Below are positions 2,900 to 31,447 of a stretch of DNA of 35,694 nt, piece by piece. The position numbers and the translations under genes are program-made. The notes beneath the pieces were generated by a model. The model was given only the letters and a program-made list of their open reading frames with translations, searched no databases and was not told where the DNA came from. Position 1 is the first letter of the stretch; each line of letters starts with the position of its first letter. This stretch comes from a virus: IMG/VR virus record IMGVR_UViG_3300048589_001332, positions 1 to 35,694 of that record; one strand, written 5' to 3'.

Positions 2900-4243
2900 A
2901 TGCAAAAAGGATTTTACATTGTTTCTCAGCTACTTCGCCGCCCCTGGGCGATTGATGCTCGTTTTGCCGAAGCCAACAAAACCATTCCTTACCGCCTGCT
3001 TAACGGCCTGGCTATTGAGTCTGAAAGCGATGCCAAACAAGACAAACGCTCTGTACCCTTTCTGATTCAGGACGCCCGCAAACCTTACTCATATTCTTAT
3101 TCAGACTGGAGCGACGCCCCCGAAGGCAGTATTGCCGTTATTCCCATCATCGGTCCGCTCATGAAGTACGATGTTGAGGAGTGCGGAATGATTACCATCG
3201 GAATGGCCAGCATCGGAAGATCAATCCAGGATGCAGCCGATAATCCAAACATTGCTTCCATCATACTTTATATTGATACTCCTGGTGGAACCGTTGACGG
3301 AACCCAGGCGCTGGCCGAACTTATTAAAAAAGTTGACCAGCAAAAACCGGTTATTGCCTTTGTTGATGGGCAAATGTGCTCAGCTGGCATGTGGATCGGA
3401 TCCCATTCGCGTTACATCATCCTGGAAAACACCAGCACCGAGGCCGGATCCATCGGGGTGTGCTACTCCTTTTTTGATGAGCTCAAACGCCTTGAGGCAG
3501 AAGGCATCACTTTCCATTACATAGTACCTGAAGAGTCGCAGGATAAGAACGCTCCTTTTATGGAAGCGCTTAAAGGCGAATACAAACTTCTTATTGATAC
3601 CGAGCTTAAGCCTCTGGTGTACATGTTCAGGGATGCCGTGCGCAAAGGCCGTGGCGAAGTTTCTGACGAAGCCATGACCGGAAAAGTTTTTTTTGCCGAA
3701 GAGGCCATTAGCCTCAACCTGGCCGATGAAATTGGCAGCTTCCAGCGAGCTGTCGAAAAAGCTTCAGAGCTGGCAAATTCTCCACAATCCAAATCTTCAA
3801 AAAACAAAAAATCAAAACAGATGAAGAAATTAACACATCTCATCGCCCTTTTGGGCGTTGAAGCCATTTCACTGGAAGAAGGTGCAGAATCTGTAGCCTT
3901 TACCATTGAGCAGCTCGAAGCAGCAGAAACAAGCCTTGAGCAGATGCATGGTCAGATTCAGCAGTTAACCACCGACCTGGGCACCGCCAACGATGACCTG
4001 GGTACCGCGCAAGGTACAATCACAAACCTGCAAACTGCTGCCACCACGGCACAAAATCGCATCACCGAACTCGAAGGCACTGTTTCGCAGCAGCAAACCC
4101 GCATCGCTGAACTGGAAGCCGATCCCGAAATCACTACTGTAACAAAGGAAGGTGATGACGATCCGGAAGGCGGAAAAACCACCGATGCTTCGGCTAAGCT
4201 GATGCACAAGAAATTCCTGGCCACCTCCGGCGCGGAAAAATAA
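2900..4243 (+). CDS. S49-family prohead protease with C-terminal scaffold-like domain
   Basis: A 447-residue serine peptidase of the SppA/lambda-C type (S49), expected to process capsid proteins in the prohead. Residues about 75-290 carry the ClpP/SppA fold: GSIAVIPIIGPL, ASIILYIDTPGGTV, the nucleophile region with Ser161 in MCSAGMW, and Lys216 in SQDKNAPF as the likely general base. The GKVFFAEEAISLNLADEIGS motif is typical of the family. Residues 308-447 form an unrelated acidic, coiled-coil tail with repeated LGTAN/LGTAQ, as expected of a scaffold. Met308 could be an internal start (see separate entry). The capsid gene follows 34 nt downstream, the classical order. Protease call is strong; the scaffold call is by analogy with lambda C/Nu3. 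Confidence 0.9.
   Translation: MQKGFYIVSQLLRRPWAIDARFAEANKTIPYRLLNGLAIESESDAKQDKRSVPFLIQDARKPYSYSYSDWSDAPEGSIAVIPIIGPLMKYDVEECGMITIGMASIGRSIQDAADNPNIASIILYIDTPGGTVDGTQALAELIKKVDQQKPVIAFVDGQMCSAGMWIGSHSRYIILENTSTEAGSIGVCYSFFDELKRLEAEGITFHYIVPEESQDKNAPFMEALKGEYKLLIDTELKPLVYMFRDAVRKGRGEVSDEAMTGKVFFAEEAISLNLADEIGSFQRAVEKASELANSPQSKSSKNKKSKQMKKLTHLIALLGVEAISLEEGAESVAFTIEQLEAAETSLEQMHGQIQQLTTDLGTANDDLGTAQGTITNLQTAATTAQNRITELEGTVSQQQTRIAELEADPEITTVTKEGDDDPEGGKTTDASAKLMHKKFLATSGAEK
3821..4243 (+). CDS. Possible nested scaffold protein from internal start in protease gene
   Basis: An in-frame ATG at 3821 begins MKKLTHLIALLGVEAIS at the exact junction between the protease domain and the coiled-coil tail; it would give a 140-residue protein. 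It is preceded by an A-rich stretch ending AATCAAAACAG, closely matching the AATCAAAACTCAG in front of the capsid gene start at 4278. In lambda, scaffold Nu3 is made from an internal start in the protease gene C in the same way. The product is predicted to be mostly helical and acidic. Real expression cannot be shown from sequence; the alternative is that the tail is only used as part of the full-length protein. Confidence 0.5.
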   Translation: MKKLTHLIALLGVEAISLEEGAESVAFTIEQLEAAETSLEQMHGQIQQLTTDLGTANDDLGTAQGTITNLQTAATTAQNRITELEGTVSQQQTRIAELEADPEITTVTKEGDDDPEGGKTTDASAKLMHKKFLATSGAEK

Positions 4244-4277: not shown

Positions 4278-5312
4278 ATGGCTACTAACGCTGTTGACAT
4301 TTCCGCCCTGCAGGCTTACTGCGAGGAGCACGCACCGGAGCTCATAGCCCTGGCCGTGAAAAACAATGAGCTTTTTGAGCAAATGAATGTAATTGCCGGT
4401 GTTACCGACAAATACATTATGACGGCTCTTGAGTTCGAAAAAATCTTCAAACCTTATGCTAAAGCATGGGATCCCGCTGCCGGCGCAAAACTTACCCCGC
4501 GTACCGGATACGTTGAACTCGGACAGGTTGAGCTCGAAGAAGAGCCTCAGGCCTACCGTAAAACCTACCTTGGAAAAGTACTCAAAGGAACTGATCCCGA
4601 TCAGCATCCTTTTGAAAGAGATTTTCTCGAGGGAATTTCCATCCGCGTAAGCAACGACATCAACGATGATCTTGCTTTCTTCGGAGACAAATCGCTGAAA
4701 CAAAATGTTGATCCAGCCATCGCTAAAAGCGTTAAAGCCATCAACGACGGATTTTTCACCATCATTGACAAGGAAGTTACTGCCGGTAACATTTCCGTTG
4801 CCAAGAAAAATCTGATTGCCACCGGTGACATCAACAGCACAAACGCTGTTGCAAAACTCAAAGCTTTCTACCGCAAGGCCTGCACCTACAATCCTGCACT
4901 TCGCAGGCAGAGTGTTAAGCTGTACATCTCTCACGATGTGATGGATGCTTACAACGATAACTATCAGGCGCTGAATGGTGCGCTTCCTTACAACAAAGAA
5001 TTTGAAAAAACCTTCCTCGAAGGATCTGCTCAGCGTTGCGAACTCGTGCCTCTTTCGGCCATGGGTACCTCCAAGCGTATTATGCTGGGACCTCAGAAGA
5101 ATTTCAATATTCTGGTTGACCAGGTTTCTGACCAGGAAAAAGTTCACGTATTCTCCCCCGGCAACCCCAAGGTTGTTGGATTCTATCTTGCCGCTGCAAT
5201 CGGATTCGAGTTTACCACCCTTTCTGCTTTGTGGACCAACGAGGCAAGTGTTGACAGCGACGATTCTGGTTCTGCTTCTGCTTCCGCTTCGGCTTCGGCT
5301 TCTGCCTCCTAG
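4278..5312 (+). CDS. Major capsid protein with Ser-Ala repeat tail
   Basis: A 344-residue protein at the place of the major capsid protein, directly after the protease/scaffold gene. The internal pattern (EHAPELIALAVKNNELFEQM, KLYISHDVMDAYN, NFNILVDQVSD, GFYLAAAIGFEFTT near the end) fits the HK97-type capsid proteins of Bacteroidetes phages. The start has the A-rich leader CAGAAAAAAG. The odd feature is the last 15 or so residues: after EASVDSDD the chain ends in alternating Ser-Gly and Ser-Ala pairs. Related Ser-rich runs appear in the proteins at 5376 and 21051. It is followed immediately by a terminator, which may reduce read-through to later genes. Capsid identity is by position and pattern. 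Confidence 0.82.
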   Translation: MATNAVDISALQAYCEEHAPELIALAVKNNELFEQMNVIAGVTDKYIMTALEFEKIFKPYAKAWDPAAGAKLTPRTGYVELGQVELEEEPQAYRKTYLGKVLKGTDPDQHPFERDFLEGISIRVSNDINDDLAFFGDKSLKQNVDPAIAKSVKAINDGFFTIIDKEVTAGNISVAKKNLIATGDINSTNAVAKLKAFYRKACTYNPALRRQSVKLYISHDVMDAYNDNYQALNGALPYNKEFEKTFLEGSAQRCELVPLSAMGTSKRIMLGPQKNFNILVDQVSDQEKVHVFSPGNPKVVGFYLAAAIGFEFTTLSALWTNEASVDSDDSGSASASASASASAS

Positions 5313-5952: not shown

Positions 5953-5983
5953 AACGCCCCTCAAAATGGGGCGTTGCTTTTTT
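5953..5983 (+). terminator. Terminator after the 5376 gene
   Basis: Stem AACGCCCC/GGGGCGTT with a 7-nt loop and a GCTTTTTT tail. It ends 18 nt before the ATG of the next gene. Confidence 0.75.
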
Positions 5984-6000
5984 ACAAAACAATTAAAACC

Positions 6001-7011
6001 ATGGCAACGAAAAAAAAATCAACCAGCAAACCCAAAAAAGAGGATGTTCAGCCTGCAGCACTCCAGGATAATGAAATTCCTGCTGATGCCATTGCAAATG
6101 CAGTACCCGCACCATCAGAACCTGAGGATGTTCAGCCTGCAGCACTCCAGGATAATGAAATTCCTGCTGATGCCATTGCAAATGCAGTACCCGCACCATC
6201 AGAACCTGAGGATGTTCCAGAATCAGTAGATACGGATACTGAGGTTCCTGAATATTACGACACTTTTGTAATTCCATTTGTTGATTCTACTGCAAAATGG
6301 GAAGAACTGAGGTATGCACTCAGAAGCATCGCCAAAAATGTAAGCAACAATGCAAAAGTTTGCATCGTTGGCGCTGGATTACCATCGTTTGTTAATCCTG
6401 ATACTGTTACACTTATTGAGTGCGAGCAGGTAAAGGGTATGAGGTTTGCAAAATCCTATGATTCCATTGAAAAGCTGAAAGCAGCCATCAATCATCCCGA
6501 TGTTTCCGAAAGGTTTGTCTACACATACGATGATACCGTTATTCTTCACCAGATTACATCTTTTGAAGATGTTCCTGCAATTGCTGTATCACATATCAAC
6601 CCTGAAAAAATCAGCGATATGGATGGAAGCGCAATCTGGAAAGAGGTTTTGCAAAATACAGTTGGCCGGCTGAAAGCAAATAATCTGCCTATGCTTAACT
6701 ATGAAACACATTTGCCCAGAGTTTTCACAAAAGAAAAGGTTAAATCGACAATTGAAAAATTCGGGTTCCAGAAACGGCCTTATCTTTTCTCAACACTTTA
6801 CTTCAATTCGCTTGAAGAAAAAGATGTGATTCAACTGCTTAAAGATGCTGTTCATATCAAAGCCGACATCCGCAAACCACTCACACCCGAAGAAATTAAG
6901 GCCGAAGTTAAAAACAAAGTATTCCTCAACTACAACGACTCCGGACTTAATGAGCACCTGAAAGACTTCCTGATGGAAACATTCCCTGAAAAGTGCCGCT
7001 TCGAAATTTAA
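6001..7011 (+). CDS. Stealth-like/GT-A-type glycosyltransferase candidate in head operon
   Basis: 336 residues from the ATG at 6001; the frame is open upstream to a TTG at 5974, but that lies in the terminator, so 6001 is used. Residues 1-13 are Lys-rich; residues about 14-69 are two identical 28-residue repeats rich in Ala, Pro and acidic residues. The domain after residue 88 begins FVIPFVDSTAKWEELRYALRSI and contains YTYDDTVI with Asp177-Asp178, then RVFTKEKVKSTIEKFG. These resemble the Stealth/capsular phosphotransferase and GT-A glycosyltransferase pattern (sugar-nucleotide binding start, DxD-type acidic pair). The substrate is unknown; it could modify virion proteins or host glycans. It is the last gene of the head operon. 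Family call is moderate. Confidence 0.6.
   Translation: MATKKKSTSKPKKEDVQPAALQDNEIPADAIANAVPAPSEPEDVQPAALQDNEIPADAIANAVPAPSEPEDVPESVDTDTEVPEYYDTFVIPFVDSTAKWEELRYALRSIAKNVSNNAKVCIVGAGLPSFVNPDTVTLIECEQVKGMRFAKSYDSIEKLKAAINHPDVSERFVYTYDDTVILHQITSFEDVPAIAVSHINPEKISDMDGSAIWKEVLQNTVGRLKANNLPMLNYETHLPRVFTKEKVKSTIEKFGFQKRPYLFSTLYFNSLEEKDVIQLLKDAVHIKADIRKPLTPEEIKAEVKNKVFLNYNDSGLNEHLKDFLMETFPEKCRFEI
6040..6207 (+). repeat. Two identical 84-bp tandem repeats in the glycosyltransferase-like gene
   Basis: Units at 6040-6123 and 6124-6207 are identical, followed by a 10-nt start of a third (GAGGATGTTC). Each encodes 28 residues beginning EDVQPAALQDNEIPADA. Identity at all codon positions indicates a recent duplication, and the unit length keeps the frame. 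Confidence 0.95.
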
Positions 7012-9367: not shown

Positions 9368-10988
9368 TCTGTATCTAAATATTCCGCAGCTGCAGTGCAT
9401 CCTGGTTGACCCCAAGGAGCTTTACGCCCATATGGGACGCGGATTAGGTAAAAGTACCGAAATCATCGCTCATTTAACGGCAAACCGGGTTTACGATATG
9501 CCCAGGGCTGGGTTCCTGCTTATGGGACGCACTTACAAGCAGATTCTTACCAAAACACTTCCGGCAACCGTTGACGGATGGAATAAGCGTGGGTTTGTTG
9601 AAGGCGTTCATTATGTAATCGGAGAAAAACCTCCCTGGGATGTTAAAGCATATGGGGCGCCTCAAAAGGATTACACTCATTTCATTTCATTTTACACCGG
9701 CACCGGCTTTCATCTGGGCAGCCAGGACAGGCCAGGGCTGGTAAACTCACTTACAGTGTGGGGGATTTTTGGAGATGAGTCAAAACTTTTGCTCGAAGAA
9801 AGATTCAAAGAAGACGCCATGCCTACCCTCAGGGGAAATCTCAACGCATTTAAGGATAACCCGCATAACAGATCGGTAGTACTTACTTCGTCCATGCCGC
9901 CTTTGCCCGATGGGCAGTGGCTTTATGAAATGGAAAAGAGGATGAACGAAAAGAAGATACGTGCAATACTCAATCTTTCGTGGTATGTTGAGCAGCTAAA
10001 GGTTGATTACAACGAAGCCGGTGAGTTCTTTAAACCCCGAATTGCCCGCAAAATCAAATTCTTCGCTCAGAAGCTGAATAAATGGCGTTTGGATAAAGAT
10101 GGCCAGGTAATGTATATTGAAGCCAGCAGCCTGGCGAATTTGCATATCCTGAGGCCTGATTATATACTTCAGCAACAGGATATACTCAAGGGTAAGTTTC
10201 GCACCGAAATATTAAACCTAAAGCCTAAACGCGGCGAAAGCTTGTTTTATGCCAACCTTGCGCCACGGCATTATTACACCGATTTTAATTACAACTACCT
10301 GGGAAGGTTCAACCATAAGAATATTGCCGAAAACGACAATTGTCAGGGCGATAACGATTTGCTTAAAACAAATCCTTTGATTATAGGGATGGACTTCGGC
10401 CCCAACTTTAACTGTATTGTTACAGCTCAGAAAATAGAAAGCCTCAGGGAGATCAGGTTCCTGAAGAATCACTGGGTAAAGTCACCCAAGATTATAGACC
10501 ATGTGTGCCAGGATTGGTGCGATTATTACCATACCCATCCTAAACGTGAGTTGTTGTTTTATTACGATAATACCGGGAACAACCGACAGGCAAACAGCGA
10601 CCTTACATTTGCACAGCAAGCCGCTCGGATATTCCGCAAAAACGGATGGGAAGTTACCCAGAAGACCATAGGAGGAGCCAACCCGCAGCACGATAAGAAG
10701 TATCTATTGTGGAACCTGATGTTGCTTGAGCAGGATAAGATCCTTTACAAGGTACGCATAAACGAGTCAAACGCCAGCGATTTGAAGCACAGCATGGAAT
10801 TCGCTCCAGCCAAAGAGGGAAGCAACGGGGAAGTAAAGAAAGACAAAAGCTCTGAAAAGAAAGCATCAATACCCGACGAAGAGGCAACCCACTTAAGTGA
10901 TGCCGCCGATACCATTGTATTTGGAGAGTTCAGAAATGTACTCGATTTATTCGATATGTCAAATTATTACGATATCAGGATAAGGTAG
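9360..10988 (+). CDS. Terminase large subunit (packaging ATPase-nuclease)
   Basis: 542 residues, the normal length for TerL, the motor that pumps DNA into the prohead and cuts it. The ATPase domain shows a Walker A-like GRGLGKST at residues 26-33 and Walker B as WGIFGDE with Asp139-Glu140, then a coupling-type motif VLTSSMP. The C-terminal RNase H-like nuclease shows Asp345 in IIGMDFGPN, Asp403 in FYYDNTGNN and Asp514/Asp517 in HLSDAADTI. It is the last gene of the packaging operon; a 980-bp non-coding region follows. The portal gene is nearly 9 kb away, which is unusual. Confident. Confidence 0.93.
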   Translation: MNDLYLNIPQLQCILVDPKELYAHMGRGLGKSTEIIAHLTANRVYDMPRAGFLLMGRTYKQILTKTLPATVDGWNKRGFVEGVHYVIGEKPPWDVKAYGAPQKDYTHFISFYTGTGFHLGSQDRPGLVNSLTVWGIFGDESKLLLEERFKEDAMPTLRGNLNAFKDNPHNRSVVLTSSMPPLPDGQWLYEMEKRMNEKKIRAILNLSWYVEQLKVDYNEAGEFFKPRIARKIKFFAQKLNKWRLDKDGQVMYIEASSLANLHILRPDYILQQQDILKGKFRTEILNLKPKRGESLFYANLAPRHYYTDFNYNYLGRFNHKNIAENDNCQGDNDLLKTNPLIIGMDFGPNFNCIVTAQKIESLREIRFLKNHWVKSPKIIDHVCQDWCDYYHTHPKRELLFYYDNTGNNRQANSDLTFAQQAARIFRKNGWEVTQKTIGGANPQHDKKYLLWNLMLLEQDKILYKVRINESNASDLKHSMEFAPAKEGSNGEVKKDKSSEKKASIPDEEATHLSDAADTIVFGEFRNVLDLFDMSNYYDIRIR

Positions 10989-17619: not shown

Positions 17620-18236
17620 AATGTTTAATCTCAGATTGGTCGTGTGTTTACCATGCTTGTATGAGTGATGATTGTCAGAAAGAAGTTGTACTTTCACAAG
17701 GGTTTGAATTAGGGAAAAGTAATTGCAAAAAAATGAAATCACCTGTTTATAATGTTATTCCAGTGCCTGTAGAAAAGATACAGGCCAATAGTTATAACCC
17801 GAATGCCGTGGCGCCTCCTGAAATGAAGCTGCTTTATCAGTCGATCAAAGAGGATGGCTATACCATGCCGATAGTCTGCTATTACTTGTCAGATATTGAC
17901 AAATATGAGATTGTTGATGGCTTCCACCGTTTTACTGTTATGCTTAAACATCGCGACATTTATGAGCGCGAAAACGGCCTTATGCCGGTGGTTGTAATTG
18001 AAAAAGACATCAGCAACCGCATGGCCTCCACCATCAGGCATAATCGTGCCCGTGGTTCGCATGATATTGACCTGATGGTTAACATTGTTTCTGAGCTAAC
18101 TAAATCGGGCATGAGCGATGCCTGGATAATGAAACACATTGGCATGGATGCCGATGAGTTGTTAAGATTAAAACAAATATCTGGCCTTGCAGAACTTTTT
18201 AAAGACAAAGAATTTTCAAACTCACAAGAAAAATGA
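17616..18236 (+). CDS. IbrB-like ParB-family protein
   Basis: 206 residues. The ParB/sulfiredoxin-like domain starts near residue 43 (VIPVPVEKIQANSYNPNAVA), with KSI/QSIKEDGYTMPIV, the ParB box YEIVDGFHRF and a downstream HNRARGSHDID. This is the IbrB pattern. The start used overlaps the IbrA stop (ATGA); it adds a Cys-rich N-terminus (Cys3, Cys10, Cys15, Cys20, Cys37). An alternative ATG at 17733 has a better A-rich leader (AATTGCAAAAAA) and would begin just before the ParB domain. The protein presumably binds nucleotide and/or DNA and acts with the IbrA-like partner. Confidence 0.82.
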   Translation: MKCLISDWSCVYHACMSDDCQKEVVLSQGFELGKSNCKKMKSPVYNVIPVPVEKIQANSYNPNAVAPPEMKLLYQSIKEDGYTMPIVCYYLSDIDKYEIVDGFHRFTVMLKHRDIYERENGLMPVVVIEKDISNRMASTIRHNRARGSHDIDLMVNIVSELTKSGMSDAWIMKHIGMDADELLRLKQISGLAELFKDKEFSNSQEK

Positions 18237-18706
18237 AAGACGACAAATACAAGGAAGCAGCACGGATGCTGCTGGGCTTTTTGAAACAAATTGCCCGGGA
18301 AAAAGGGATAACTGAAGTTCAAATATCAGAAACATCAGGGTTTATTCGCCCAAACGTTAACCGCATGTTTAGCGGCAAGTACATGCCAACGCTGGATAAT
18401 TTTATCCGCCTTGGAGATGCTGTTGGCGTTAGGCTTGAACTTCATGGACCAGAAGACACCACTGAAGCGCAGGTGAGGAATGTTAATATTCCAAAATTCC
18501 TTTTTTCGCCGGATGTGAAAACCAGAGAATTATACATAGTTCACACGCATTACCCTGCTTGCCTGATAAAGGTAGTGCAAACCATGCCGGCGCAGTTTGA
18601 AGTATTGCAAAACTTCGACAATTCAGATGATTTTTCTGAGGTATTGACAGAAGCAAGAGAATTCTTCCGGGATCAGGCAATTCAGAATAATGAGTTGATG
18701 AATTGA
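18233..18706 (+). CDS. XRE-type regulator ending the IbrAB operon
   Basis: 157 residues. An N-terminal helix-turn-helix of the XRE/Cro type spans about residues 14-63 (IAREKGITEVQISETSGFIR, MFSGKYMPTLDNFIRLGDAV). The C-terminal half is a separate alpha/beta domain (ELYIVHTHYPACLIKVV, DDFSEVLTEAREFFRDQAI) that I do not recognise. It overlaps the IbrB-like stop by 4 nt. As last gene of an operon whose promoter contains a 22-bp palindrome, it is the likely autorepressor. An antitoxin-like role is possible. Confidence 0.75.
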   Translation: MKDDKYKEAARMLLGFLKQIAREKGITEVQISETSGFIRPNVNRMFSGKYMPTLDNFIRLGDAVGVRLELHGPEDTTEAQVRNVNIPKFLFSPDVKTRELYIVHTHYPACLIKVVQTMPAQFEVLQNFDNSDDFSEVLTEAREFFRDQAIQNNELMN

Positions 18707-19720: not shown

Positions 19721-21054
19721 TGAAAACACTTGAATTAAAAGAAGGTGTAGCCGGTGTGCTTCCAAAATCGAAAGGCACCTATAAGATTGAAGGCAATAAT
19801 TCAAATCCGAAGCCTTCCGGCGTTTCTAACACCACTGTTAAAAAACTGAATAAAAGCATCCAGAATTTTGCTGAGGACACCAAAGGAACAAGTGTTAAAG
19901 ACGTTAAGATATCAGTTTGGGGTCGCGACAATCTGTTCCCCCAGCATCTTATGAGCTTATACCAGAATAATATTTTCCCAGGGCTCATGGATTTTAAGGT
20001 GGATATGCTTTACAGCCTGGGGGCTCAGATTTATGAAAAAAAGGTTGTTGGTAATCAGTTGGTTGAAATCCCCGTAATTGATTATGAGATTGAAGACTGG
20101 CTTGAAAGCTGGGATGCAAAGAATTTTATTGCCGATCAGTTTACCGACTTCGTGTGGACAGAAAACCTGTTTACACAAATAGTGGTAAACAAAACCAAGA
20201 TTCAGCCTATTCGCTCTCTTAAGCATGTCAATACAGAAGAATGCCGCCTTAGCATAATGAATAATAAAGGCATTTCGGAGAAAGTTATGATGGGCAACTG
20301 GACTGATAAAAAAGACTATGTTCCGGTTGACAGATGGGATCCGCTTAAGCCCGAAAAGCATGGTGTGTATATGATACACGCGAAAAAGAAAAGTTACGGA
20401 TTCAGGTATTATAACTACCCGGTTTATATTGGGGTAACTTACAAGTGGCTGCCGCTGGCAAATGAAATACCTACCTTCCACCTTTCGCGGCTTCAGAATT
20501 CAATAAATGCGAAGTTTCATATTAAGATACCTGTTTCTTCGCTGCAGGCACTTAAGGAACTGTACAACTGGAATAAGGAGCAAATTGACAAATGGCTGGA
20601 AGATAAGCTCACAGAAATTGACAATATGCTGGCCGGTGCCGAAAATGCCGGGAAAGTTTTTTATACTTTCAAAACAACCGATGCAAACGGCAAGGAGTTG
20701 AATGGCTGGGAGATTATTGAGCTTAAAAACTCAGAAAAGGAAATGAGCGAAGCCAACCTGAGGCTGTTTAACGAAACCAATCAGGCCATTACCAGCGCGG
20801 TACAGGTGCAGCCATCGCTGGCCTGTATACAGCTTGGAGAAAAAATGAGCTCAGGATCTGAAGTACTCAACAGCTACAATCTGCATATTAAAACCCGTAC
20901 CACCATTGCGCGCAACCTGGTGATGGACAACATTAACCGGGCTATAAGATTAAACTGGCCCAAAAAAAGGGTTTATCTTAAGATTGTTGATGCGGTACTG
21001 GTTAAACAGGAAGATAACAAATCGGGGTTACAGGAGCCTTCAAATAGCCAATGA
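19720..21054 (+). CDS. Portal protein
   Basis: 444 residues from the ATG at 19720 (another ATG 6 nt upstream is possible). Portal-type pattern: an N-terminal disordered stretch, then VWGRDNLFPQHLMSLYQNN, FKVDMLYSLGAQIY, a central region with a Trp/Tyr-rich stretch, and the C-terminal helical part with ITSAVQVQPSLACIQLGEKM. The length is at the low end of portal proteins but normal for Bacteroidetes phages. The portal forms the dodecameric vertex ring through which DNA passes. It overlaps the next gene by ATGA. It lies far from TerL, separated by the accessory island. Confident by pattern and context. Confidence 0.8.
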   Translation: MKTLELKEGVAGVLPKSKGTYKIEGNNSNPKPSGVSNTTVKKLNKSIQNFAEDTKGTSVKDVKISVWGRDNLFPQHLMSLYQNNIFPGLMDFKVDMLYSLGAQIYEKKVVGNQLVEIPVIDYEIEDWLESWDAKNFIADQFTDFVWTENLFTQIVVNKTKIQPIRSLKHVNTEECRLSIMNNKGISEKVMMGNWTDKKDYVPVDRWDPLKPEKHGVYMIHAKKKSYGFRYYNYPVYIGVTYKWLPLANEIPTFHLSRLQNSINAKFHIKIPVSSLQALKELYNWNKEQIDKWLEDKLTEIDNMLAGAENAGKVFYTFKTTDANGKELNGWEIIELKNSEKEMSEANLRLFNETNQAITSAVQVQPSLACIQLGEKMSSGSEVLNSYNLHIKTRTTIARNLVMDNINRAIRLNWPKKRVYLKIVDAVLVKQEDNKSGLQEPSNSQ

Positions 21055-22079
21055 TAATAAAAAGTATAGCAGATCTTATCACTCACGTGGGGGGTGTACT
21101 GCAAGGGAAAGATTTTGGCGACATAAAACCATCGGTTGAGTGGGCTGAAGAAGAAATGCTGATTCCGGCCATCGGGCAGGAAATGTATGATTTGCTGGAA
21201 TCCTATCTTGAGGATGGCAGTGGATCGGGTTCGGCTTCTGCTTCCGGATCGGGTTCTGGTTCCGGATCTGCAACATCGTACCAGGATGCGCTTAAACTTG
21301 CGCCCAAATGCGCGCGCGTGGTTGCTCATTTTGCTATGTTTGACTATACTACTATCAGCGATAGTAAAGTAACGGCACAGGGGCTGCAGATTGTTGAGAC
21401 GAACACTCATAAAACTGCTTATGAGTATCAGAAACGCGACCGTAAAAAATATCACGGTGAGAAAGCCGATAAAGCCCTGGACAGCCTGCTGCTATTTCTT
21501 GAGAACAATAAAACAAAATACCCCGAATGGGCGAATAATGCAGCGGTTTACACAGAAACCAGGAAACTGATTATCAATAACACTCAGCAGTTTAATGAGT
21601 GTGTTGATATTGGAGGCTCGCGGCGAACTTACATGACTTTGAGGGGATTTATAAAGGATGTGGAGCAAATGCACGTACTTCCAGCCCTGGGTGTTACAAT
21701 ATACCAGGCGCTGAAGTCGCATATACTTTCTGGCGGCAACTCGGCAAACTACAAACAACTACATGATTTACTGGTACCGGCAGTGGCGAATATGGCCATT
21801 GCCGATGCCTTGCCGTCAATTATCTTCCGTATTGCCGGCGACACCATCACTACAGCGACTTACAATCCTTTCTCTGAAAAGGAAAAAGAGCAGATTACAA
21901 AAACAGTGAACAGCATTATTGCTTCGCGTTTGCAGAAAGGAGCCAACTACCTGAAGCTTGCAGTTGACTTTGTAAAAGCCACTCCTGATCTTTTTGCCAT
22001 TTCGCCTTACGCTGCCACTACCGAAGCGGAAGGTGGTTACAATAACTCGGAAGACAAAAAACATTTTGTTGGATTTTAA
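21051..22079 (+). CDS. Head-tail connector candidate (DUF6712-like) with Gly/Ser/Ala linker
   Basis: 342 residues, directly after the portal. Two halves look homologous: residues about 5-55 (EMLIPAIGQEMYDLLESY) and 190-225 (MHVLPALGVTIYQALKSHIL), each followed by helices of similar pattern. In the first half the loop after the long helix is expanded to a run of about 20 Gly, Ser and Ala residues (residues 56-74); the second half has only a short SGGNSAN there. Similar runs end the capsid protein. The family resembles DUF6712 of Bacteroidetes phages; an adaptor/connector role is inferred from its place after the portal. Confidence 0.65.
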   Translation: MIIKSIADLITHVGGVLQGKDFGDIKPSVEWAEEEMLIPAIGQEMYDLLESYLEDGSGSGSASASGSGSGSGSATSYQDALKLAPKCARVVAHFAMFDYTTISDSKVTAQGLQIVETNTHKTAYEYQKRDRKKYHGEKADKALDSLLLFLENNKTKYPEWANNAAVYTETRKLIINNTQQFNECVDIGGSRRTYMTLRGFIKDVEQMHVLPALGVTIYQALKSHILSGGNSANYKQLHDLLVPAVANMAIADALPSIIFRIAGDTITTATYNPFSEKEKEQITKTVNSIIASRLQKGANYLKLAVDFVKATPDLFAISPYAATTEAEGGYNNSEDKKHFVGF

Positions 22080-25348: not shown

Positions 25349-25873
25349 ATGAAAACTTTAATCTCATTTTTACTGGTAGTGACATCACATTTTGCTATTT
25401 GTCAAAATGGCAAATATGATATCTCTGAAGTAATTGAAATTGACAGCACATCCAAAACAGAGCTTTACAACAGAGCGATTGAGTGGTTTTCTAAAACTTA
25501 CAAATCTGCAGATAAGGTGATACAGCATGCAGATAAAGAAACAGGTGTTATAATAGGTAAAGCTTTAATGAAGTCCTACGTTAAGGTAATGGGATCGTAT
25601 AACAATGCTGGCTTTGTTTATTATACAATTACTATATCAGTAAAAGACAATAAATACCGGTATGAAATAAACAATGTGTATCATGACAGAGCTTTTTCAA
25701 GTTTGGGTGGCTCTGGCGGAAGTTTAAATAATGAGGTTCCTGCGTGTGGTCATTTTAATATTACAAAAAAGTACTGGGAAACAATAAAGAGCTTTGCAGA
25801 TAAGGATATTGAAAATATTGTCAACAGTTTAAAGACTTCAATGCAATTACCATCGAAAAAAGAGGATTGGTAA
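25349..25873 (+). CDS. Exported DUF4468-type protein (TBP-like fold)
   Basis: 174 residues with a signal peptide (MKTLISFLLVVTSHFAICQ). The mature part follows the DUF4468 pattern of Bacteroidetes: EIDSTSKTELYNRAIEWFSK, SADKVIQHADKETGVIIGKA, then a beta-rich segment with YRYEINNVYHDRAF. These are usually chromosomal envelope proteins of unknown function. The gene is visibly richer in A/T than its neighbours, suggesting separate acquisition. It sits between tail genes and the antirepressor module, so it is probably a lysogeny-expressed cargo gene (moron). A short hairpin GGGG/CCCC precedes the ATG. Confidence 0.78.
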   Translation: MKTLISFLLVVTSHFAICQNGKYDISEVIEIDSTSKTELYNRAIEWFSKTYKSADKVIQHADKETGVIIGKALMKSYVKVMGSYNNAGFVYYTITISVKDNKYRYEINNVYHDRAFSSLGGSGGSLNNEVPACGHFNITKKYWETIKSFADKDIENIVNSLKTSMQLPSKKEDW

Positions 25874-25882
25874 AAAAAACAC

Positions 25883-25912
25883 TTGACTTTCGTACATAAA
25901 TGTGTATCTTTG
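25883..25912 (+). promoter_or_regulatory. Host-like promoter of the antirepressor module
   Basis: TTG (25883), 19 nt, then a perfect -7 box TATCTTTG (25905-25912). Between them lies ACAT-AA-ATGT, a small palindrome that could be an operator. It is the best host-type promoter in the window. Confidence 0.8.
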
Positions 25913-25914
25913 TG

Positions 25915-26070
25915 CCATCATTCAGCTGAACATCTGAATGAAGAGTCCAAATCCGCCAACAATGTTCTTCGATAAAACATTTAACTTAATAGGGGAAACC
26001 CTCATTCATCTTACCGGGAAACCGGTAGCACCCTTGGCGGGGTGTGACTCGGATGGGTGGGGGTTTTTCC
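25915..26070 (+). ncRNA. Structured leader RNA, C4-antisense-like, upstream of antirepressor
   Basis: Between promoter and gene lie several compact helices: TCATTCAG/CTGAATGA (25918-25941); CCGCCAA (25953) with TTGGCGG (26034); AATGTT/AACATT (25961-25981); AGGG-GAAA-CCCT (25991-26002); TACCGG-GAAA-CCGGTA (26012-26027); CACCC/GGGTG (26029-26044), whose loop is the TTGGCG strand, giving a possible pseudoknot. A competing 12-bp helix joins 25999-26010 to 26052-26063, just before TTTTT and the ribosome site. In phages P1/P7 the C4 antisense RNA lies upstream of ant on the same transcript and pairs near it to block expression. Position and structure match this plan; the family match is unverified. 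Confidence 0.6.
26052..26068 (+). terminator. Possible attenuator/antisense target ahead of the antirepressor
   Basis: GATGGGTGGGGG followed by TTTTT; it can pair with CCCTCATTCATC at 25999-26010 (three G-T pairs). It would act as a conditional terminator or as the target of the antisense segment. Confidence 0.45.
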
Positions 26071-26087
26071 ATTAGGAGACAATGTAA

Positions 26088-26657
26088 ATGAAAACAACTG
26101 AAATTACAGTTGCCAATGTCAACCAGGTTGACATCACCATCATCAAAAACGGTGAAAAAAGAGTAGCCGTTCGGCCAATTTGCGATGCACTCGGCATCGA
26201 CTTCTCTGCTCAACTTCAAAGGCTAAAAAGAGATGAAATTCTAAGTTCAACTGTGGTTACCATAACCACGGTTGGAGCCGATAAAAAGGGCCGGGAAATG
26301 GTAACAATCCCTTTTAAATTTGTGTTTGGTTGGTTGTTTACTATTGACACATCTAAAGTAAGGGAAGATGCAAAAGATGCAGTTCTTAATTATAAACTGC
26401 AGTGTTACGATGCACTTTACAATTACTTTACTCGTCACGAGGAGTTTCTTGAGCACAGGCAAAGCCTGATTGATGCCCGCCTGGCCGAATACGATGCCGC
26501 CCGCAGCGATTTCAGGGTAGCCAAAGAAAAGGTAAACGAGGCACGCAAAGCCTTAGACGAGGCTCGCGCCATAACCGAAGCCGAATATTTTGAGAACAAA
26601 CGGCAGATGGTTATTGATTTTCCGGCAGAGCAAGGAAAGGAGGCTGGCAATGAATAA
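26088..26657 (+). CDS. Phage antirepressor (P22_AR_N domain)
   Basis: 189 residues. Residues about 14-115 match the P22 antirepressor N-terminal domain: VAVRPICDALGIDFSAQLQR, LKRDEILSSTVVTI, and VFGWLFTIDTSKVREDAKDA then LQCYDALYNYF. The C-terminal 70 residues form a coiled coil (RLAEYDAARSDFRVAKEKVN). Such proteins inactivate the repressor and trigger induction or immunity changes. The gene has a real Shine-Dalgarno site (AGGAGA, 8 nt before ATG), unlike most genes here. An ATG-TAA lies directly before the start and is ignored. It is led by the structured RNA described above. Confidence 0.87.
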   Translation: MKTTEITVANVNQVDITIIKNGEKRVAVRPICDALGIDFSAQLQRLKRDEILSSTVVTITTVGADKKGREMVTIPFKFVFGWLFTIDTSKVREDAKDAVLNYKLQCYDALYNYFTRHEEFLEHRQSLIDARLAEYDAARSDFRVAKEKVNEARKALDEARAITEAEYFENKRQMVIDFPAEQGKEAGNE

Positions 26658-27820: not shown

Positions 27821-30800
27821 ATGGCAGACCTTGCAATTGACAGGGCGCAACTTGAAATTATCATCAAAAACGATGAATCACGCAAGCGCCTGCGCGAACT
27901 CGAAGAAGGTACTTCTAAACTCGCTAAAGAGCTCAGAACTTTAGAGAAACAAGGCAAAAAAGATACCGAGGCTTACCGCGAAAAAGAAGCAGCCATCAGG
28001 CGCAACCGCGCAGAGATGGACCGGCTCATCAATACCATTGGCCTTACCGGGCTTACCATGAAGGAGCTGAAGAAAAGGCAATCGGAACTCAATCTGATTA
28101 TGGCGCAGATGGACCCCAGAACTCCTGAATACAAAAAACTGGAGGCTCAGCTTGCACAGGTTAGCGGGCGCATAAGGGAACTTAGAGGCGGCGCAAATGA
28201 GGCGGGTGTAAGTTTAAAAGGGATGGCCGATGGGTTTAACCGGTATTTTGGTATGGTTACTACTTTTCTGGCTTCTATTACCGGGCTTGTGCTTGGTTTC
28301 CGAAGCCTTGCCGAAAAGGTTGCACACATGGATGATGTGTACTCTGATGTGATGAAAACCACAAAAAAAACCAGGGATGAGGTGGTTGAACTTAACGAGG
28401 AGTTTAAACAATGGGATACACGCACCGCCAGAGAGCAGTTGAATTTACTTGCCCGGGATGCCGGGAAGCTGGGCAGGGAATCAAGAAAGGATATTCTTGA
28501 TTTTGTGGAAGCTGGGAATCAGATAAATGTTGCACTTGGTGAAGATTTGGGCGATGACGCAATTAAAAACATCGGCAAAATGGTTGGCGTTTACCAGGAC
28601 GCCACTCAACAACTTCAGAACATTGGCCTGAAAGAACAAATGCTGGCTGTTGGAAGTGCTATTAATGAGCTTGGATCTTCCAGTACTGCAAGTGAACCCT
28701 ATCTGGTAAGCTTTGCCGGGAGATTGGGAGGTATTTCAAAACAGGCAAAAATCAGCATTGCTGATATTCTGGGATATGCCTCGGCTCTTGATCAGGATAT
28801 GCAGGCCGTTGAAATGTCGGCAACTGCTTTTCAGAATTTCATTATGAAATTAACGGCAGATCCTGCAAAGTTTGCCCGAATTGCCGGCCTTGAAGTTAAA
28901 TCTTTCTCAAATCTGCTGAAGACAGATGCCAACGCTGCAATAAAACAAGTTCTCACCTCAATGAATGAGCGCGGTGGATTTCAGGAGCTCATTCCAATAT
29001 TTGAGGAAATGGGTCTTGAAGGTGCCAGGGCTGTGGGTGTGTTATCGGCGATGGCTGGGAGCATTGAAAAAATTGATGAGGCACAGAAAATATCAAACCA
29101 GGCAATGGTTGATGGCACATCTATTACTGCTGAGTACAACATAAAAAACAACAACCTGCAGGCAGGTTTAGAAAAAGCCCGTAAAGCCTTTTTGGAAAAA
29201 GCGCTGGTACTTGGCGAAAAATTAACACCAGCGCTTACAAGAAGCACCAATGGCTTTGCATATATAATCAAGATACTTACAGAGCTTCCGAGGTTTATCA
29301 GAGAAAATCAGATACCTCTTATTTTGCTTGCCGGCGCATTCCTGGCATTGCAGGCTGCAAAAATTAAAGTAATTGCAGCTTCGGCACTTGAACATATTAT
29401 GCTGCAAAAAGGCATCGGATTGAAAATAAAAGATGCCATTGTACTTAAAGCCTTACTTGTGCAGGAGCAATACAGATTGGCTATGGTTGGTAAGACCACC
29501 ATTGCACAAAAAGCAGCAGCCATCGCCACAGCTACTTGGAGATCAGCACTACTTGCGCTTGGTGGTCCTTTGGGATTGGCTGTTATGGGAGTTACAGGTT
29601 TAATTGCAGCAATAAAGCTATATGATCAGCGAAATTCTGAATCGCTTAGGCTTGAGGCTGTAAAACAACAGCGTTTAAACAGTATTAACGAAATCAATAA
29701 GCAGCTGAATATTACCTATAATGCTACAAGTAACATTATTCGCGATATCAATTCGCTTAATTTTGAACAGATTCAGAATCTTTCCGATTTAACTGCAGCT
29801 ACTATTAAGCAGGCTGAAGCGGATTTGCTGGCAGCAAAAATTAAACAGCAAATAACCCAGGAAGAAAATACCCGGGTAGGTATATGGGATAGGATTAAAA
29901 ACCAGTTTCTTTCATTTAACAATACCTGGGCTGCCACCATCAGAAATAATGAAACAGCAAAAGAACGAGGCAAAGAGGCCGCCGCTCAGTTTAATGATGA
30001 GATATCGGCACTTGAGCAAAATATCAGCGATCTTAAAACACAGCATCAGGAAATGACCAACATCCTTACTGCTGAAGCCAAAGCCGATAAAATTGCAGCT
30101 ACAACCATTTCTCAATTCGAGGAAAAAGCCCGGTTGCTTTCCATCGCCTTAAGATCAGTAAACAAAGATTCCGAAGATTATAACCGGATTAATGCAAAGC
30201 TTACTGAGGTTAACAAGGAGTTAAATAAGGCCAACACCAAAATACTTGATGACAATGCAAAACTGATAACTGCTTACCAGGAGCTATCTAATCTTGCCGG
30301 GCAATACAAGGATCATTTAACTGACCTTGTAATGCAGGGAGACCTTACTGAGGCAATGAAGGTAGGACAGTTATTAAGCTCACTTCAGGCAGCTCAGAAG
30401 TTTATTGATGATATTGTTGCCGCCGGAGGTAACCTTGATGTGGTTATTGATAAGGTAAAAACCGGCATTATAGATAAAGGCCAGGAACAAAGTATTTTTT
30501 CTTTTGACGGTAAAGGGAATAAAATTCTGAGTGATGACTGGGTAAACCAGCTTTTTGATGAATACGAAGCAACGGTTGATCAGCTTGTAAATCCTGAGAA
30601 TGCCTCAGATATGCAAAAGGTGCAATTGCCAATGTTTGATAAGGAATTCTTCCTTAATCAAACAGAGGTGCTCAGCAATGCTGCTTTTAATATCTGGAAA
30701 AACAAACAGGATCAGCAATATGAATATGAGCTCAATCGCCTGAATCGAGCCAGGGAAGCAGAGCTTGCGAATAAAAATCTAACTGAGGCGCAAAAGGATG

Positions 30801-31447
30801 CGATTAATGATAAATATCGCAAAAGAGAAGCAAAACTCAAGGCTGAGGCATTCAGAAAACAAAAAGCTGCCGATATATTGCAGGCAATAATTAACGGTGC
30901 TTTGGCTATTACCAAAACTTTTGCAGCTTACGGTTTTACTCCGGCCGGATGGGCAGCTGCTATTGGGCAGGGAATTGCCACAGGGGCACAGGTAGCCACT
31001 ATTGCATCTACAAAAGTTCCTCAATACTCAAAAGGTAAATACCAGGTAACTGGTGCTGATGACAACCGCACATATCATGCAAGTTTTATAGGTACTCCAA
31101 AAACCGGCATTATTGCAAGGCCGAGCCTTATTGCAGAAAACGGGGGAGAGCTTATTATTGATGCTCCTACTACCAGCAAAATGATGGCCAACGCGCCCGG
31201 GCTGGTAAGGGCAATTTACCGCATGGCGGGTAAGGTTCCGCAGCGGGCAGATGGCAGTTATCCTGCTGATATGTATCCGGACGGCAGCAATCAGGGTGGA
31301 ATGATTATGATTCCGCGCGAATATCTTTCCGTTTTTTCAAATCTTGAAAATACACTCAGAAAAGGTGTTAATGCAAAACTTTCGCTTTTCGATCTTAAAG
31401 AATTTGAAGGCAACGAAAGCGATATTGAAAATGCTTCCGGCTTCTGA
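27821..31447 (+). CDS. Tail tape measure protein
   Basis: 1208 residues, the longest gene, with the TP901-type tape-measure core (about residues 150-450: RLGGISKQAKISIADILGYA, GAINELGSSS-like stretch, MSATAFQNFIMKLT, GLEGARAVGVLSAMAG). N-terminal 100 residues are coiled coil (LRELEEGTSKLAKELRTLEK). Hydrophobic segments lie near residues 145-165, 500-520, 580-600 and 1025-1070. A second coiled-coil stretch lies around residues 960-1020. The length suggests a long tail, so a siphovirus-like or myovirus-like virion. It determines tail length and helps DNA entry. Confident. Confidence 0.92.
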   Translation: MADLAIDRAQLEIIIKNDESRKRLRELEEGTSKLAKELRTLEKQGKKDTEAYREKEAAIRRNRAEMDRLINTIGLTGLTMKELKKRQSELNLIMAQMDPRTPEYKKLEAQLAQVSGRIRELRGGANEAGVSLKGMADGFNRYFGMVTTFLASITGLVLGFRSLAEKVAHMDDVYSDVMKTTKKTRDEVVELNEEFKQWDTRTAREQLNLLARDAGKLGRESRKDILDFVEAGNQINVALGEDLGDDAIKNIGKMVGVYQDATQQLQNIGLKEQMLAVGSAINELGSSSTASEPYLVSFAGRLGGISKQAKISIADILGYASALDQDMQAVEMSATAFQNFIMKLTADPAKFARIAGLEVKSFSNLLKTDANAAIKQVLTSMNERGGFQELIPIFEEMGLEGARAVGVLSAMAGSIEKIDEAQKISNQAMVDGTSITAEYNIKNNNLQAGLEKARKAFLEKALVLGEKLTPALTRSTNGFAYIIKILTELPRFIRENQIPLILLAGAFLALQAAKIKVIAASALEHIMLQKGIGLKIKDAIVLKALLVQEQYRLAMVGKTTIAQKAAAIATATWRSALLALGGPLGLAVMGVTGLIAAIKLYDQRNSESLRLEAVKQQRLNSINEINKQLNITYNATSNIIRDINSLNFEQIQNLSDLTAATIKQAEADLLAAKIKQQITQEENTRVGIWDRIKNQFLSFNNTWAATIRNNETAKERGKEAAAQFNDEISALEQNISDLKTQHQEMTNILTAEAKADKIAATTISQFEEKARLLSIALRSVNKDSEDYNRINAKLTEVNKELNKANTKILDDNAKLITAYQELSNLAGQYKDHLTDLVMQGDLTEAMKVGQLLSSLQAAQKFIDDIVAAGGNLDVVIDKVKTGIIDKGQEQSIFSFDGKGNKILSDDWVNQLFDEYEATVDQLVNPENASDMQKVQLPMFDKEFFLNQTEVLSNAAFNIWKNKQDQQYEYELNRLNRAREAELANKNLTEAQKDAINDKYRKREAKLKAEAFRKQKAADILQAIINGALAITKTFAAYGFTPAGWAAAIGQGIATGAQVATIASTKVPQYSKGKYQVTGADDNRTYHASFIGTPKTGIIARPSLIAENGGELIIDAPTTSKMMANAPGLVRAIYRMAGKVPQRADGSYPADMYPDGSNQGGMIMIPREYLSVFSNLENTLRKGVNAKLSLFDLKEFEGNESDIENASGF

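Follow-up and report, generated by a model that had tools for sequence, protein, structure and literature searches.

A candidate C4-type antisense leader crossed by a short reading frame, ahead of an antirepressor-type operon in a Bacteroidetes phage

The leader and its neighbours

The window, meaning the whole stretch of DNA analysed, is a virus record of 35,694 bases, for which the label "prophage" used in a preliminary description of this DNA was not established. The phages nearest to its large terminase and tape-measure proteins infect Flavobacterium, Porphyromonas, Cellulophaga and Polaribacter, and the best matches also include two Microcystis phage records. The DUF4468 and tape-measure genes flank a small operon whose first gene encodes a 189-aa P22_AR_N protein, which matched PF10547 above the Pfam gathering score (108.3 bits, E 3.2e-31, cut-off 30.7) and 'anti-repressor Ant' in PHROG. 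The preliminary description had placed a P22-type antirepressor after the leader; the domain is indeed encoded there, and the protein would probably act as an antirepressor under the control of the leader. The features of the locus are as follows.

25349-25873: DUF4468 gene, upstream neighbour of the leader
25883-25912, plus strand: Bacteroidetes-type promoter, TTG at 25883 and TATCTTTG at 25905-25912, read directly
25918-25940, plus strand: 5' hairpin at the transcript start, from folding; seen in some family members only
25943-25947, plus strand: target site a (a1-like), GAGTC, pairing with 26046-26050
25953-25959, plus strand: target site b (b1-like), CCGCCAA, pairing with the loop at 26034-26040 and ending 2 nt before the start of the upstream open reading frame (uORF)
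25962-26075, plus strand: uORF of 37 codons, spanning the entire antisense core, its stop overlapping the ribosome site
25992-26070, plus strand: C4-like core RNA, with main stem 25992-26011/26051-26070, hairpins C and D, and strand a'
26012-26027, plus strand: hairpin C with GAAA tetraloop, from folding
26028-26045, plus strand: hairpin D with b' (TTGGCG, 26034-26039) in its loop, from folding and pairing
26046-26050, plus strand: a' (GACTC), unpaired in the predicted core
26074-26078, plus strand: Shine-Dalgarno-like AGGAG, its AGG paired with 25985-25990 across a bulged A (25991)
26088-26657, plus strand: P22_AR_N antirepressor-type gene, 189 aa, from Pfam and PHROG matches
27821-31447: tape-measure gene, downstream of the small operon

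The leader (25913-26087, approximately 170 nt), lying between the promoter and the P22_AR_N gene, is real and conserved. The promoter, previously said to be of host type, could be read in the sequence, and its TTG ... TATCTTTG arrangement fits the Bacteroidetes consensus; TAnnTTTG was present upstream of the leader in 17/17 members of the family described below and in both held-out members. The structured nature of the leader was confirmed by its folding energy (-61.9 kcal/mol compared to -43.1 kcal/mol for shuffles; z -4.41, with 0/200 shuffles as low). The 5' hairpin, judged by eye, was missing from short leaders such as L256, L257, L259 and L251.

Several details of the fold had to be revised. 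Of the two GAAA-capped stems first proposed, one was recovered (26012-26027), whereas the second 'GAAA' (GGGGAAACCC) forms one side of the main stem. The supposed 12-bp competing helix (25999-26010/26052-26063) does not compete, being the middle of the 20-bp main stem, and the GGGGG-TTTTT tract taken for its end is paired within that stem, with no free U-tail. The suspected pseudoknot was supported, as the pairing of 25943-25959 with 26034-26050 is pseudoknot-capable and is kept in relatives.

Relatives of the leader and covariation of its antisense and target sites

Bacteroidetes phages and genomes of Bacteroidales yielded 16 distinct relatives and a further two that were held out. A protein search returned nine related loci, five of them with this leader recognisable upstream, and an 18-base exact pattern from the window gave no matches. 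An initial gapped collection pattern lacked stringency (246 matches in 249 records examined). Twelve stretches passed a lenient filter, comprising the window's own copy twice (window, L001), the real element in five (L002, L003, L005 and the same-contig copies L105 and L030), and chance matches that were rejected (L029, L078, L082, L098, L202). A main-stem DNA pattern, which set no condition on sites a, b or the uORF, retrieved 20 stretches from viral contigs. Fifteen were this leader element, 12 of them distinct and three (L260, L262, L265) near-copies; L249, L250/L255/L264 and L258 were discarded as chance. Alignment A1 and covariance model R1 were built on 13 sequences, namely these 12 and the window. 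R1 then added L281, L282 and L283 (match in 14/23 records searched), and a second pattern added L284, giving 17 members in all; a further pattern search returned five members, all already known. Near-copies (L260, L262, L265), same-contig copies (L105, L263, L030, L266, L253) and L285 (identical to L281) were left out of the 17-member tests. With strict filters, a scan of the phylum matched 1/395 Bacteroidota genomes and a scan of the order 3/393 genomes, the latter being the source of the held-out members L310 and L311. Comparing three leaders with named phages by BLAST yielded nothing beyond short chance matches.

Some candidates were set aside. Model R2 captured the outer stem only, and matches to the hammerhead ribozyme, IMES-4 and other Rfam families scored far under the gathering thresholds. 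The leaders L007, L008 and L010, which precede P22_AR_N genes, fell outside the family (L007 and L010 by eye, both with R1 E>=0.1; L008 with no R1 match), and the phage of L008 carries its family member at another place, L282. Positions 2790-2990 of L010 and 2940-3000 of L007 are structured leaders of a different type before other P22_AR_N genes. Near 9638-9720, at a contig end, L265 is a near-copy of L251 that diverges directly after the T run and has neither the ribosome site nor the same gene.

All 17 cores of the first set folded alike, into a long stem, a tetraloop hairpin, a second hairpin with b' in its loop, a short single strand a' and a closing stem. RNAalifold predicted 27 pairs in A1, and for 11 of them at least one sequence differed at both positions. 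The bulged A beside the main stem was invariant in A1, and the extension beyond it into the ribosome site corresponds to columns 55-60 paired with 146-151. Because the search patterns required the main-stem sequence, part of its invariance reflects how members were selected. L282 (1548-1637) has one extra A in the A run of its main stem relative to other members.

The loop of hairpin D and the strand that follows are complementary to the two short upstream sites a and b. Across the 17 members, the duplex of each antisense segment with its own target averaged -18.2 kcal/mol compared to -11.6 kcal/mol for cross pairs (z -8.2; 0/20000 permutations reached the observed sum, in a test that makes no correction for relatedness among members), and the same permutation test on hairpin C gave z 0.03. 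The own target ranked first of 17 in five members and among the first three in 15. There were 16 different a strands and 12 different b strands in the 17 members, each matching its own partner. In shuffle tests of single leaders z ranged from -1.2 to -6.3, so that L002, L252 and L009 are not individually significant. Held-out L310 added a matched b pair and an a pair not seen before, and held-out L311 also pairs. Covariation in homologues, a check proposed in the preliminary description, was strong, sites a and b changing together with a' and b', so the combination that was to count against that description (no model match and no covariation) is not what we found. For a second target of the P1 a2/b2 kind, no site was detected near the window's gene (z 0.4) or elsewhere within the window, and weak values (z about -2) were obtained in L006, L261 and L251.

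The covariation fits pairing in cis and in trans equally. The a/b and a'/b' sites lie approximately 75-100 nt apart in one transcript and could pair in cis, where the sole target set also lies. These points suit a purely cis-acting leader, in which an a/b-a'/b' pseudoknot within the same molecule controls uORF initiation in the way of a riboswitch or protein-binding leader, with no excision and no action in trans. However, P1/P7 C4 RNAs of the same order are processed and trans-acting according to passages of PMC5320573, and the strong divergence of a/b between phages resembles a change of specificity, not a conserved ligand pocket. We therefore regard the cis-only explanation as unlikely; under the preferred antisense reading, the RNA would pair with its targets in the cell, be processed and act in trans.

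A short reading frame through the RNA

Absent from the preliminary description was the 37-codon uORF, which starts 2 nt past site b and ends over the ribosome site. In 17/17 members a start codon lay close to the end of site b, at most 2 nt ahead of it or 5 nt past it (15 ATG, 2 TTG), and shuffles had an ATG at that position 2.4 times on average and 8 times at most, compared to the 15 observed. The frame, of 23-68 codons, was open through the entire RNA to the ribosome site in 16/17 members and the other two frames in 1/17 each, one of these being nearly always closed by construction through the UAG within the AUAG demanded by the search pattern. Over the core only, in 13 members, the own frame was open in 13/13 and the remaining alternative frame in 6/13. 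The sole exception was L282, whose uORF stops early, in hairpin D. Held-out L310 has an open ATG uORF; held-out L311 has a TTG only, further downstream, and its frame is also open. These patterns suggest that the uORF is translated.

Relative to the core RNA, the uORF uses one frame in 9/13 members and another in 4/13. Two frames over the same RNA imply that translation through the RNA is kept, and not a peptide. If the conserved feature were instead a small uORF-encoded protein, with the RNA structure secondary, the open frame in 16/17 members and the peptide motifs (IGETL...) common to the uORFs of some relatives would be accounted for. The reading of a shared core in two frames and the compensatory a/a' changes, which alter the peptide freely, make this very improbable.

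At the ribosome site, the main stem extends past the bulged A, so that the AGG of AGGAG is paired, and uORF translation may be coupled to this site. In passages of PMC9723704, flavobacterial hosts are described as having no Shine-Dalgarno use and atypical promoters, and the strong ribosome site of the leader stands out because such hosts lack Shine-Dalgarno use. A different role for the stem would be that of a transcription attenuator, in which the main stem and GGGGGTTTTT would act as an intrinsic terminator, blocked by uORF translation. GGG-TTTT stands at the stem end in the first 13 members, yet for most of them the tract was in the search pattern, and translation of the uORF would melt the stem. 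Within the stem, however, the T run pairs with GGGGAAA and leaves no free tail, and the covarying a/b pairs are unneeded for attenuation. We consider an attenuator quite improbable as the explanation; attenuation and the antisense switch that we favour could coexist.

Leader-peptide attenuators of the trp and erm types likewise have a short ORF over a structured leader. The present family differs from them in that the peptide is not conserved, two reading frames are used, and antisense/target pairs are conserved.

C4-type RNAs and the proposed switch

The P1 record is annotated in the order a1, b1, c4, a2, b2, icd, ant1. In common with the P1/P7 C4 immI operon (RF01695; c4-a1b1, RF03163), the leader has promoter, a1, b1, C4 and antirepressor operon in order, a three-stem fold with a tetraloop hairpin, b' in a hairpin loop and a' in the next single strand, and an upstream a1/b1 target that is colinear with and complementary to a'/b'. 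P1 c4 folds into a stem, a hairpin capped by UUCG, a second hairpin whose loop holds b', and a seven-base strand holding a', each placed as in the leader core. Unlike P1/P7 C4, the family has one target set rather than two and no icd, and the ribosome site of the gene lies within the stem extension. RNase P processing yields a C4 RNA of about 77 nt that acts in trans; the window core is 79 nt long (25992-26070) and its first base is G. Passages of PMC5320573 describe C4 as binding its targets through the a' and b' loops, with b' occluding the ribosome site and RNase P processing at the 5' end of the stem, and C4 is listed for 'Proteobacteria, phages' in passages of PMC2864571.

The RF01695 covariance model, the search first suggested for the leader, matched neither the window nor any of the relatives' leaders, and its P1 positive control scored 68.8 bits; R1 in turn did not find P1 c4. 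The uORF through the RNA is conserved in the leader family and not in proteobacterial C4 loci. Ten of 20 such loci combined z<-2 with a start codon near the target; in these the own frame was open in 5/10 and the others in 5 and 5, and we rejected the idea that C4 loci generally carry the uORF. A 66-codon frame with no CDS annotation does occur in P1 (L287 168-368; P1 record 48267-48467); its ATG overlaps b1, and it crosses c4 and stops just before icd.

The c4-2 RNA is reportedly described in a NAR paper. Its model (RF02944) left the window unmatched even at E<=10 and exceeded the threshold in 1/19 records in all (G022), at L282 (42.8 bits; gathering 41), a locus also found by R1, which was built without it. 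It also scored above threshold in 9/395 Bacteroidota genomes, with two to six matches per genome, and the earlier statement that our leader would extend the C4 system to Bacteroidetes is therefore overstated. A literature search found no Bacteroidetes phage leader of such kind, which is weak evidence of absence as most subscription journals were outside its coverage.

Among five named phages tried, c4-2 was present in one, Flavobacterium phage 1H (49.4 bits; L303 2684-2762, corresponding to KU599889 9697-9775, minus strand). It occupies the same slot as in the window (DUF4468 gene, RNA, small genes, tape measure). A complementary target lies upstream of the 1H RNA (z -4.6), and a weaker target is seen where the gene begins (z -1.5). 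R1 scores neither the 1H element nor the chromosomal c4-2 loci, so the kinship to c4-2 rests on L282, synteny and fold. Chromosomal c4-2 loci share with the leader family the fold, an upstream target and a through-running uORF. In 15 of them, targets before and after the RNA were alike in most, and 12 had an ATG by the upstream target, with the frame open through the RNA in 10 and the other frames in 0 and 3. They differ from the leader family in having another copy of the target ahead of the gene, and what follows them is in most cases a 77-aa gene family instead of an antirepressor. In the Bacteroidota genomes of L288-L302, c4-2 often occurs several times per genome, mostly ahead of this conserved 77-aa gene (MSTNTLSKETELRL...). 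L004 has two sub-threshold c4-2-like units (3956-4043 and 5036-5122) close to a P22_AR_N gene, and each shows strong complementarity upstream.

The preliminary description's C4/ant plan holds in the order of parts, the fold, the covarying a/b targets and the c4-2 matches in L282 and the syntenic 1H; the models RF01695 and c4-2, neither of which matches the window, and the lack of a second target set speak against it. The C4 idea was right in plan and wrong in some details, and it lacked the reading frame. At the level of sequence, the architecture, the covarying a/b pairs and the conserved uORF are established, and we consider it probable that the leader is a C4-type antisense switch shutting off uORF-coupled expression of an antirepressor operon in a Bacteroidetes phage. 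Against this reading stand the missing RF01695 and c4-2 matches and second target in the window, the failure of R1 at P1 c4, the 1H element and the c4-2 loci, the early uORF stop in L282, and the restricted occurrence of the uORF in proteobacterial C4 loci. The operons also count against it, as the first gene is of the antirepressor (P22_AR_N) type in 4/17 members only (window, L002, L003, L252) and a small gene in the others. PHROG gave no match for 10 proteins of such operons, nine of them first genes. P22_AR_N or Bro-N occurred within the operon in 11/17 (proteins of the remaining operons being scanned in part); as five loci were found through P22_AR_N and the window was the query, the fair figure is 5/11 (L252, L254, L281, L283, L284).

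In the proposed switch, a single transcript from the host-type promoter would carry sites a and b, the uORF start, the C4-like antisense RNA, the ribosome site and the antirepressor gene. The antisense RNA, in cis or in trans after release, would pair with a and b and cover the approach to the uORF start; with the uORF untranslated, the ribosome site would remain sequestered by the main stem and its extension, keeping the antirepressor off. Without the antisense RNA, a ribosome on the uORF would melt the main stem and open the ribosome site. The anatomy would account both for repression, through pairing at a/b ahead of the uORF start, and for coupling between the uORF and a stem-locked ribosome site. 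Passage of the ribosome would also ruin the antisense fold in the same transcript, making translation and antisense production alternatives for that transcript.

A further, tentative idea, which we hold at somewhat below even chances, is that this exclusive use of one RNA forms a bistable, self-locking immunity switch, with the 16 a keys in 17 members defining as many superinfection-immunity groups. If so, a translated transcript could not form the antisense RNA and a folded one could not be translated, and each phage lineage would have its own a/b key, giving RNA-defined superinfection-immunity groups among Bacteroidetes phages. To our knowledge, P1/P7-type RNA-based immunity has been worked out mainly in one pair of enterobacterial phages. 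Here that plan turns up in Bacteroidetes phages in a compact form, with the putative antisense RNA lying inside a reading frame whose start is at the target, and immunity specificity would be predictable from a few paired bases. Such a design may also explain why a strong Shine-Dalgarno site occurs in hosts that mostly work without it. Flavobacterium phage 1H, with c4-2 in the same slot, is a cultivated system at hand.

Elsewhere in the window, a protein encoded at 18233-18706 has weak matches to phage transcriptional repressors and is a candidate partner for the antirepressor. Among the proteins encoded at 5974-7011, 4278-5312 and 21051-22079, one has a tandem repeat of approximately 25 aa near its start and the two others have Ser/Gly/Ala-rich runs.
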